Shown here piece by piece: positions 23,721 to 26,732 of a DNA stretch of 39,606 nucleotides (within the stretch, counting starts at the first letter, position 1; each line of letters starts with the position of its first letter). This DNA is from Bacillota bacterium (GTDB taxonomy: Bacteria; Bacillota_I; Bacilli_A; Erysipelotrichales; Erysipelotrichaceae), in assembly GCA_018065105.1 (NCBI GenBank), contig JAGHTX010000043.1, positions 1 through 39,606 of the forward strand, in the 5' to 3' direction. Made by a program: the position numbers and the translations under genes. The notes below the pieces were generated by a model. That model saw only the letters and a program-made list of their open reading frames with translations. It searched no databases and was not told the origin of the DNA.

Positions 23721-24808
23721 AATTTGTTTAAAATGACGCTTAGCAACAAAGAAAGAAAAAATACGGGAATCATACGAATGAGTAAATAAGTACATTCTTC
23801 TAAAAAAGTAAAGTTAGCGATTGCTTCTGAAGTATAACCTACGATAAAGGAGGTTAAGCGTCCATATGTGTTTCCTTGGGAAAGAAGAGCAATATAGAAG
23901 TGCGTCAAATAAATATAGAAAGTCTGATTTCCAACAAAGTGAATGACCTTACTCAATCTTCCTGTAGGAATAGGGATAGATAATAGCACAATAATCAAAC
24001 TTGCGACCACAATAAAGGAAAAACTGGTTGACCAGTTAAGAAAATAAGCCGATGTGATATCCTTTTGGAGTTGCATATAGTGAAGTGCATATCGAATTCC
24101 TTCAAAAATAAGTGCATTGGCTCCGAATAAGATTATCATCTTCCTGTTTCTTCGAATTCGCTCAATGTTTTTATAGATTGTATATCCAGTAATCGCATAG
24201 ACTATCGGAACGCTTATCGGAATGAAATCCGTAATAGGTACATAATAAGGAATGTTGATATGCAGATCGTTGATCAACATATTGACTAACGCAAAACCAA
24301 TAAGGAAGTATCGTATATTCCTAGTCTTTTGATTCGCTTCTTTATTCTTTAATCCCGGACATATCCACTTTAGGATCGGGAATAGAAGGACCACTAAAAA
24401 ATAGGAATGGATATACCATAAGTGGGTTGCTCCGGACAATTCCGTTCTTCCATAGAGTATACTGGTAAGAAAATTCTTCAAATGGAAATTGGCTGGTACA
24501 AAACAACTGGCTATGGATTGTTTCTCATAGAACCAGGGATAGAATAGCTGGGATAGAAACAAGACAATTAGAGCAGGTAATAAAATATTTTTTGTCGTCT
24601 TTTTTAAGACCTTGATATAAGAATCGTTATTGAATAAAAAGAATCCCATCAAGATAAAAAAGAAGGCGACCCCATCACTAAAAAGCAATCCCCACATGAT
24701 TTTTGTGTGATCCAAGGTAGTAAGGGTTAAGTTGTTGATGTGCCTTCCAATCACGATTAGACATGCTAGAACTCGTATTAAATCAACATTTACATCTCTT
24801 TTTTTCAT
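23696..24808 (-). CDS. Acyltransferase 3 family membrane protein
   Basis: The 370-residue protein has about ten membrane segments and opens with the acyltransferase 3 signature DLIRVLACLIVIGRHINNL, where Arg and His are the conserved pair of the fold. A FFFILMGFFLF segment follows, as in O-acetyltransferases such as OafA- and WecH-like enzymes. These move acyl groups, often acetyl, onto extracellular sugars or cell wall components. A GGTGA sequence precedes the ATG. Acceptor unknown. Confidence 0.85.
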   Translation of the reverse strand: MKKRDVNVDLIRVLACLIVIGRHINNLTLTTLDHTKIMWGLLFSDGVAFFFILMGFFLFNNDSYIKVLKKTTKNILLPALIVLFLSQLFYPWFYEKQSIASCFVPANFHLKNFLTSILYGRTELSGATHLWYIHSYFLVVLLFPILKWICPGLKNKEANQKTRNIRYFLIGFALVNMLINDLHINIPYYVPITDFIPISVPIVYAITGYTIYKNIERIRRNRKMIILFGANALIFEGIRYALHYMQLQKDITSAYFLNWSTSFSFIVVASLIIVLLSIPIPTGRLSKVIHFVGNQTFYIYLTHFYIALLSQGNTYGRLTSFIVGYTSEAIANFTFLEECTYLLIRMIPVFFLSLLLSVILNKLKDGLQHQ

Positions 24809-24913
24809 AGAATCACCATAACACTCAATTCAGTTTAAGGAAAGGGAAAGATACATTCATTTTTAGGAAAACTTCCTTGTTTATAGTAAAGGTGTAAAAA
24901 GGGAGAGATAAAA

Positions 24914-25063
24914 ATGAAAACTTCAAAATTATCAATGGCTTTATATGGAATGAATTTAGTTTTACATACAAGAAAAACAGTAACAAAAACAGCATGCAAA
25001 TTCGCGTTTAAGCATGCCGTGTTATATGGAATTCATCGTCACGCAAAATTGAGAGTTGCTTAG
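24914..25063 (+). CDS. Small basic hypothetical protein (49 residues)
   Basis: An ORF of 49 codons from ATG 24914 to TAG 25063 has a good ribosome site (GGGAGAG) nine bases before the start. The product is very basic (many Lys, Arg and His), with 13 Lys/Arg residues spread along its length, and carries alternating hydrophobic residues suggesting an amphipathic helix. It is not similar to anything I recognise. A hairpin-like AGGAA/TTCCT repeat and a TATAGT box occur upstream near 24865-24890. It lies in otherwise gene-free DNA and could be a real small protein, such as a nucleic acid binder, or noise. Confidence 0.4.
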   Translation: MKTSKLSMALYGMNLVLHTRKTVTKTACKFAFKHAVLYGIHRHAKLRVA

Positions 25064-25110
25064 TGAATTAAATCTTTCGGGATTTAATTTTTTAATTCCT
25101 TTAAAACCTA

Positions 25111-25139
25111 TTGACATAGTAGGAAATGAAGAGTATATT
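25111..25139 (+). promoter_or_regulatory. Consensus promoter of the leader peptide-cysK unit
   Basis: TTGACA (25111-25116) and TATATT (25134-25139) are 17 bases apart. A start near 25146 gives a leader of about 125 bases containing the Cys-rich ORF. Confidence 0.75.
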
Positions 25140-25167
25140 GTGTTCAAGCTTAAGGAGGTAGTACAAA

Positions 25168-25215
25168 GTGACAATCAGACAAATGTGTTGTTGCTGGTGT
25201 ATGTGTACTCGGTAA
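25168..25215 (+). CDS. Cysteine-rich leader peptide upstream of cysK
   Basis: Behind the ribosome site AAGGAGGT (25152-25159), a GTG start at 25168 opens a 15-codon ORF reading (M)TIRQMCCCWCMCTR, with five Cys codons, ending at TAA 25213-25215. It lies about 22 bases after the predicted transcription start and 56 bases before cysK. The composition and position are those of an amino-acid-sensing leader peptide: ribosomes would stall at the Cys run when charged tRNA-Cys is short. No strong terminator hairpin is seen after it, so control may be by mRNA access or stability rather than classical attenuation. Confidence 0.7.
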   Translation: MTIRQMCCCWCMCTR

Positions 25216-25271
25216 CACGAATAAAAAAAAGAAAACTACAAATCAATATATAAAGAAAGAAGGATAAGAAC

Positions 25272-26198
25272 ATGACAATTTATAAAGGAATTACAGAATT
25301 AGTAGGAAACACACCATTAGTAGAAGTAACAAATTACGAAAAGGACAACGATTTACAAGCAACTGTATTAGTTAAATTAGAATACTTAAATCCAGCTGGA
25401 TCGGTAAAAGATCGTATTGCGAAGGCAATGATTGAAGATGCAGTAGAAAAAGGAATCTTAAAAGAAGGCGCTACAATCATTGAACCAACAAGTGGGAATA
25501 CGGGAATCGGATTAGCTGCTATGGCAGCCGCAAAAGGATTCAAAGCCATTCTAACTATGCCAGAAACAATGAGCGTAGAACGTCGTAATCTATTAAAGGC
25601 CTATGGGGCACAAATCGTATTAACACCTGGATCCCAGGGAATGAAGGGGGCTATTGCCAAGGCGGAAGAATTAGCCAAAGAAATTCCAAATAGCTTTATT
25701 CCTGGACAATTCACAAACCCTGTAAACCCAAAAACACACTTTGAAATAACAGGACCAGAAATTTGGAGAGATACAGAAGGAAAGGTAGACATCTTTGTAG
25801 CTGGTGTGGGAACTGGAGGTACAGTATCTGGAATTGGTGGATATTTAAAATCTCAAAACCCAGATGTTAAAGTGGTAGCGGTAGAACCAGCTGGTTCACC
25901 AGTGTTATCACAAGGACATGGAGGAGCTCACAAAATTCAAGGTATTGGAGCTGGATTTGTTCCAGATACACTAAACACAGAAATCTATGATGAAGTATTT
26001 CCGGTAGAAAACGAAGATGCGTTCGCCACTGGAAAAACAATCGCTAAAACAGATGGTATCTTAGTTGGTATTTCTTCTGGAGCCGCTCTTTATGCCGCAA
26101 CACAATTAGCTAAACGACCAGAAAATAAAGGAAAAACAATTGTAGCTTTATTACCAGATACTGGAGATCGTTATTTATCAACAGATTTATTCAAATAG
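25272..26198 (+). CDS. cysK: Cysteine synthase (O-acetylserine sulfhydrylase)
   Basis: The 308-residue protein has the CysK motifs in order: NTPLVEV, the PLP lysine K46 in [10 protein letters not shown], the [11 protein letters not shown] loop (72-82), the phosphate-binding [13 protein letters not shown], and the final SSGAAL. It makes cysteine from O-acetylserine and sulfide. The start has AGGA upstream. The nearby Cys-rich leader and the downstream Rrf2 gene point to sulfur-status control, and sulfur supply would matter in a cell with many iron-sulfur enzymes. Confidence 0.96.
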
Positions 26199-26206
26199 GA
26201 CACATG

Positions 26207-26236
26207 AGACAAGCGAAAAGCTTGTCTTTTCTCTTT
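26207..26236 (+). terminator. Terminator after cysK
   Basis: AGACAAGC / GCTTGTCT stem with a GAAAA loop (26207-26227) followed by a T-rich run. Confidence 0.85.
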
Positions 26237-26238
26237 TA

Positions 26239-26267
26239 TTGACATTGTATATTTAGATTGTTAAAAT
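26239..26267 (+). promoter_or_regulatory. Promoter of the Rrf2 regulator gene
   Basis: TTGACA (26239-26244), a 17-base spacer and TAAAAT (26262-26267) lie 40 bases before the ATG. Confidence 0.7.
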
Positions 26268-26306
26268 AAATCATATATAAACGATAGGAATATAGGAGAA
26301 AAAGAT

Positions 26307-26732
26307 ATGAAAATTTCAACAAAAGGAAGATATGCATTACGTATGATGATTGATATCGCGAGTCATCAAGATGAAGGAAACATCTCTTTAAAAGACATCG
26401 CAAAGCGACAAGAAATTTCTATGAAATACTTGGAACAAATCGTTTCTCCTTTAACGCATGCTGGGCTGATTCGTTCGACTAGAGGAGCGCAAGGTGGGTA
26501 TTCTTTACTACGATATCCAAAAGACTATAATGCCCTAGAAATCATTGAAGCTGTCGAAGGAAAGCTTGCGGTCGTTTCTTGTCTGGAAACGCCAACCAAT
26601 GTTTGTCCACGTTATGCATCTTGTAGCACAATCCATATGTATGAAGGATTGAACAAGGTGATGCGCGATTATTTAGAAAAATTCACCTTACAAGATTTTC
26701 TTGATCAGGGGGTTAATGATTACGTTATTTAA
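26307..26732 (+). CDS. Rrf2-family transcriptional regulator (CymR/IscR type)
   Basis: This 141-residue protein starts MKISTKGRYALRMM, the typical Rrf2 N-terminus, with a winged helix (about 24-60, ending in RSTRGAQGGYSL) and three cysteines, Cys92, Cys100 and Cys106 (CLETPTNVCPRYASC), that could ligate an iron-sulfur cluster as in IscR. CymR proteins, which control cysteine synthesis, are close relatives but usually lack this triad. Its position after cysK suggests control of cysK or of Fe-S assembly. An own promoter is present. Confidence 0.9.
   Translation: MKISTKGRYALRMMIDIASHQDEGNISLKDIAKRQEISMKYLEQIVSPLTHAGLIRSTRGAQGGYSLLRYPKDYNALEIIEAVEGKLAVVSCLETPTNVCPRYASCSTIHMYEGLNKVMRDYLEKFTLQDFLDQGVNDYVI

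Follow-up and report, generated by a model that had tools for sequence, protein, structure and literature searches.

Our analysis of a 39,606-nucleotide stretch of DNA (the window), which belongs to a 2.4-Mb draft genome, indicates that a short open reading frame lying directly before cysK is probably a cysteine-sensing leader of that gene, and that ribosome stalling within it would raise cysK output. As read from the sequence, cysteine sensing by way of the Cys codons is well supported, while translation of the leader, stalling and the direction of control are what we infer. The most likely reading is that the leader is real, conserved and cysteine-sensing and that it represents a new form of amino-acid leader peptide. 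The window itself is a modest member, and the survey of cysK genes around it is the more interesting result.

The features of the leader all lie on the forward strand. A promoter scan places a sigma-70-type promoter, TTGACA-17-TATATT, at positions 25111 to 25139, with the -35 box TTGACA at 25111-25116 and the -10 box TATATT at 25134-25139, 17 nt apart and matching the consensus at 11 of 12 positions; the -35 block is kept in G004, a genome of the same genus. There follow a Shine-Dalgarno (SD) sequence, AAGGAGGT, at 25152-25159 and, 8 nt further on, the GTG (25168-25170) that begins the leader ORF VTIRQMCCCWCMCTR at 25168-25215. Its codons, GTG ACA ATC AGA CAA ATG TGT TGT TGC TGG TGT ATG TGT ACT CGG TAA, number 15 before the stop and include five for Cys, three of them consecutive (TGT TGT TGC, 25186-25194) and the other two at 25198-25200 and 25204-25206. 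The original prediction had described just this arrangement of promoter, SD and GTG-initiated ORF before cysK, and both the sequence and the promoter scan confirm it. The spacer that follows the ORF (25216-25271) is A-rich and 56 nt long, and holds the cysK ribosome site GAAGGAT. cysK itself, encoding cysteine synthase A, occupies 25272-26198 and matches TIGR01139 at equivalog level (447.6 bits against a cut-off of 350.95); its protein contains no Cys residue. Just upstream of the cysK promoter we also observed a small ORF, MKTSKLSMALYGMNLVLHTRKTVTKTACKFAFKHAVLYGIHRHAKLRVA, at 24914-25063 on the forward strand, with an SD of its own and followed by a small hairpin and a T-run.

A terminator scan of positions 24600 to 26400 found no intrinsic terminator between the leader ORF and cysK, the sole terminator-like site being the intrinsic terminator downstream of the gene at 26206-26228, in agreement with the earlier claim that no classical terminator stands before cysK. 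The same scan, together with folding, gave no antiterminator competing with a terminator in the window's leader, and the spacer has no strong structure (MFE z for the leader, 0.38). Rfam, T-box models included, had no match in the window at gathering score, and an Rfam scan of the cysK leaders at 12 related loci matched no family, T-box again included.

Could such an ORF have arisen by chance? Short ORFs are common, but when the 135-nt leader was Markov-shuffled 20,000 times, SD-preceded ORFs containing CCC turned up in 5 shuffles and such ORFs with at least five Cys in 7, so that, family-wide recurrence aside, we find a chance ORF scarcely credible. For the recurrence we surveyed 163 distinct regions upstream of cysK, drawn from the family and order to which the window belongs. 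SD-preceded Cys-Cys uORFs are present in 53 of them (shuffle mean 0.99, maximum 3) and Cys-Cys-Cys uORFs in 40 (0.02 in shuffles), where uORFs were picked by pattern as SD-preceded ORFs, so these counts are approximate and some peptides, for example that at L044, are doubtful. The opposite-strand control gave 1, and in the same residue-pair survey the next-best residue after Cys reached 14 against 53. Cys-codon uORFs recur before cysK both in the family and in Clostridia, with the other residues of the peptide varying, and this recurrence supports the logic of a cysteine-sensing leader that had been proposed for the window.

Within the window's genus the same leader form is found in one other genome, G004, where the peptide is MKRKRMCCC. 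The two genomes agree in every letter of the block around the Cys triplet, AATGTGTTGTTG, and of the promoter block, whereas the remaining sequence and the peptide length differ. Cys codons not conserved in relatives had been named as grounds for refuting the idea; the comparison did not bear this out, G004 retaining MCCC in an otherwise different peptide. One could also imagine that the peptide is itself the functional product, either a Cys-rich peptide that binds metals or thiols or the precursor of a RiPP, as the Cys-dense CCCWCMC might suggest. However, the G004 version is just nine residues long and ends in CCC, relatives have the Cys run and its position in common rather than a sequence, and a Pfam scan of nine proteins from the surrounding region found no maturation enzyme; we give this possibility very little credence.

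No Cys uORF precedes the cysK of the congeners G001 and G002 or the second cysK of the window's genome; the G001 and G002 cysK is a different gene and no direct orthologue of the window's cysK, nor is the second copy. These absences, like the GTG start of the leader, count against the cysteine-sensing reading. The second copy, L402 (G000:C214, 1337-2278), is 81% identical, and lies directly behind a 660-codon ORF that resembles a putative anaerobic ribonucleotide reductase. In keeping with specificity for cysK, the 20 cysE upstream regions examined contain no Cys uORF. A scan of 60 genomes for the pattern CCCWC was dropped: 30 had matches, nearly all of them in other frames of unrelated coding DNA, and the reversed-pattern control proved unsuitable. 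A scan of the family for ATGTGYTGYTGYT ran into the same problem. Among 60 loci checked from these two scans only two carried convincing SD-preceded uORFs, both before cysK.

In the window's family about 40 cysK loci (e.g. L130, L133, L153, L180, L186) have leaders with a terminator, which we call type I. Their order is an SD (often GAAAGGAGACGG), an ORF with 2 to 6 consecutive Cys codons, a CCCGGAU-like segment typically 8-18 nt past the last Cys pair, a terminator and then cysK. The terminator, just before cysK, consists of an AUCCGGG...CCCGGAU hairpin followed by a U-rich stretch (UUUU). RNAalifold of the type I alignment recovers the terminator and one other stem only, because the variable spacers align poorly, and for this reason we used an own-versus-swapped test instead: pairing between the post-Cys segment and the terminator 5' arm is stronger within a locus (-11.3 kcal/mol) than with arms swapped in from other loci (-9.7 kcal/mol; permutation p<5e-5). 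Moreover, there are compensatory variants, CCTGG/CCAGG in L153 and L180 and CTCTCGG/CCGAGAG in L192. Rfam had no match for the type I leaders scanned (L130, L133 and L186). In its predicted elements, type I is textbook ribosome-mediated attenuator anatomy. By analogy with what is established for trp and his attenuators, stalling of the ribosome on the Cys codons would leave CCCGGAU exposed and able to bind the terminator arm, while a ribosome running on would cover CCCGGAU. The original prediction had suggested that the mechanism may be different, there being no terminator; this holds for the window and fails for its type I relatives in the family, which have the classical terminator/antiterminator form. 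As a separate observation, a different hairpin, GGCGTCGTG...CACATGATGCC, is present in the leader of cysK at L071 (genome G046, a relative from the same order).

The named genomes nearest to the window by cysK sequence are mostly Clostridia, and there we find leaders of another kind (type II). Of the 80 cysK loci taken from named Clostridia, 27 have a short uORF that carries an in-frame CGA-UGU (Arg-Cys) near its end, with the core CGA-UGU-UG(N) lying 58-117 nt upstream of cysK (L229, L235, L238, L244, L249, L250, L280, L283 and others). The most frequent 8-mer at -150 to -20 in these 80 loci is CGATGTTG, present in 22, and TTGACAAA is present in 12. At 25 of 26 sites, four loci from the window's family included, the core motif is in frame with an SD-preceded start; examples of the peptides are MKRC, MFKRC, MIIVKHERC, MQKRCCAG and MKITTKRCCG. 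When Clostridia Cys-Cys uORFs near cysK are listed without reference to the motif, 9 of the 14 have CGA ahead of the Cys pair, although at motif-bearing loci 1.2% of the Arg codons within cysK are CGA. In 26 type II genomes a single additional KRC uORF was found, which also stands before a cysK (a second copy); having been seen only before cysK, the type II uORF appears to be specific to that gene. In the leaders inspected by eye no terminator was seen, and type II leaders have no common structure (mean folding z -0.03). A phylum scan for the CGATGTTG uORF was set aside, the sampled genomes all being of the window's own class rather than Clostridia and the matches chance-like.

Where does the window's leader belong? 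Compared with attenuators of the trp/his type, the window has the SD-led ORF with a run of codons for the regulated amino acid, and has neither terminator nor antiterminator. With the terminator-less polycysteine uORFs of the mycobacterial kind it has in common a Cys-run uORF before a cysteine gene and the lack of a terminator. We placed 102 CysK proteins in a quick tree with several open forks, in which the window, G004 and the paralogue from the window's genome form a clade (99%). The clade that unites almost all of the family's sampled type I genes does not include it, and the leader-bearing genes closest to it are those of Clostridia type II. The codons before the Cys run are CAA ATG TGT in the window and CGA ATG TGY in G004 and L236, CGA preceding AUG-UGU-UGU-UGU in G004 and AUG-UGC-UGU-UGU in the Lachnospiraceae locus L236. 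Strictly, then, the window fails the CGA-UGU definition of type II, but the absence of a terminator fits, as does position, since the first leader Cys codon lies 86 nt upstream of cysK, within the distances at which the type II core motif occurs. The simplest reading would be that a Clostridia-like cysK arrived with a type II-like leader that was later altered. We tentatively propose, as a possibility still well short of being probable, that Bacillota have a Cys leader without a terminator, where an invariant pair of the rare Arg codon CGA and the Cys codon UGU forms the sensor and the output is mRNA translation or stability rather than termination, the variant of the window's genus (CAA/CGA-AUG-UGU-UGU) having been acquired with the Clostridia-like cysK.

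It could be argued instead that the window's leader is a decayed attenuator, its terminator lost and its Cys uORF a leftover that regulates little or nothing. Full type I leaders do occur in related family members, and the window is without both hairpins. On the other hand, the MCCC block is the same in G004 although the flanking sequence and the peptide length differ, and the window's cysK clade stands apart from the main type I clade, next to type II leaders that are recurrently terminator-less. We therefore consider decay unlikely.

How, if the ORF is a cysteine-sensing leader, would it act on cysK? Under a shortage of charged tRNA-Cys, ribosomes would stall at the leader Cys codons, and stalling in the leader would lead to more cysK output and so to more cysteine being made. 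Since the window has no terminator, the output step must work otherwise, and the scan and folding, which gave neither a terminator nor any significant structure and predicted the ribosome site of cysK to be open, yielded no link from leader to cysK. The likeliest output is at the mRNA level: a ribosome stalled near the 5' end might alter cysK translation or shield the short-leader mRNA from decay. The Clostridia type II leaders, also terminator-less, would share this route.

A more specific possibility is translation attenuation, in which the Cys-codon region would mask the cysK ribosome site by pairing until a ribosome stalling on those codons releases it, a scheme set out for translation attenuators in PMC13236596 with M. 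smegmatis cysteine genes as the example. Some type II leaders do pair strongly with the cysK ribosome site (L301 at -19.8, L284 at -17.6, L300 at -14.1, L273 at -13.9, L275 at -13.8 and L253 at -12.0 kcal/mol), and over 32 loci own pairing differs from swapped pairing (p=0.006). However, pairing is only weak in about two thirds of type II loci, and masking by the uORF was not found in the window, where pairing is weak (-6.2 kcal/mol, against -5.0 in G004) and the ribosome site is predicted to be open (unpaired 0.91, and 0.76 in G004); masking thus seems to us a doubtful explanation. Alternatively, Rho might stop transcription in the untranslated spacer past the uORF stop, which a stalled ribosome would block. 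Rho is encoded in the window's genome (528.7 bits against a cut-off of 509.45), and a role of Rho has been suggested for cys leaders without a terminator in Mycobacterium (PMC1262725). Against this, the untranslated spacer amounts to only 56 nt and is A-rich, not C-rich, and Rho-dependent attenuation appears distinctly improbable.

A second layer of control may act on the DNA. A dyad search revealed a 17-bp dyad, CCTATTGACATAGTAGG, at 25107-25123, of the form CCTAY-N7-RTAGG and overlapping the -35 box, as a candidate Rrf2-type operator. Dyads CCTAY-N3..11-RTAGG occur in 5 of the 163 family and order cysK upstream regions, the window and G004 among them. Of the 80 regions upstream of cysK in Clostridia, 23 have such a dyad, where shuffles average 0.34. 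Directly after cysK, at 26307-26732 on the forward strand, a Pfam/profile scan places a regulator of the Rrf2 family, with a promoter-like site of its own at 26239, which scores under the equivalog cut-offs for both CymR and IscR. This arrangement suggests a second, DNA-level control of cysK by an Rrf2-type protein via the promoter dyad, and we infer that it is the Rrf2-family protein encoded beside cysK that binds there.

Cysteine control in Bacillota is usually credited to CymR and to the T-box (Cys) riboswitch. The Cys uORF leaders would serve the same physiological task, and differ in that neither the window nor the 12 related loci match an Rfam T-box. In the open-access literature we found no description of Cys leaders before cysK in Bacillota, although such an absence is weak evidence. 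Terminator-less Cys uORFs upstream of cys genes are known from Actinobacteria and mycobacteria (PMC1262725), the original prediction having pointed to Cys-rich upstream ORFs of sulfur genes in actinobacteria, and translation attenuation has been reported for the cysteine genes of M. smegmatis (PMC13236596). The polycysteine uORFs of Canestrari et al. 2020, as cited in PMC13236596 and PMC9094748, are leaderless and precede operons. Such uORFs resemble the leaders described here in being short ORFs with a Cys run right before sulfur or cysteine genes and in having no conserved terminator. They belong, however, to another phylum, and whereas those of Canestrari et al. are leaderless and stand before operons, the window's ORF is SD-led and stands before cysK. 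Nearer to the window, His-leader attenuators have been predicted in six Erysipelotrichales species, in a paper that makes no mention of cysteine (PMC9413887), and thus control by leader peptides would have a precedent in that order. The His leaders of Erysipelotrichales and other Firmicutes share the type I logic, with runs of the product amino acid, a terminator and an antiterminator; theirs, however, concern histidine and the his operon, and the window's form has no terminator. The uORFC-8-2 motif, a candidate Cys attenuator before cysS in Rhodobacterales (PMC8632094), is like type I in combining two tandem Cys codons in a uORF with an intrinsic terminator, and unlike the leaders here it is alphaproteobacterial and precedes cysS, not cysK.

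Thus, more generally, our survey points to two additional layers of cysK control, neither of which matches an Rfam family: in one family an attenuator of the classical kind with Cys codons, and in Clostridia a CGA-UGU uORF without a terminator. The latter poses a puzzle, namely why one exact rare Arg codon stays beside the Cys codon. The s2C32 modification of tRNA-Arg ICG limits the decoding of CGA, and CGA might thus report the sulfur state. If the CGA-UGU pair is indeed the sensor, decoding of CGA and charging of tRNA-Cys would both matter.
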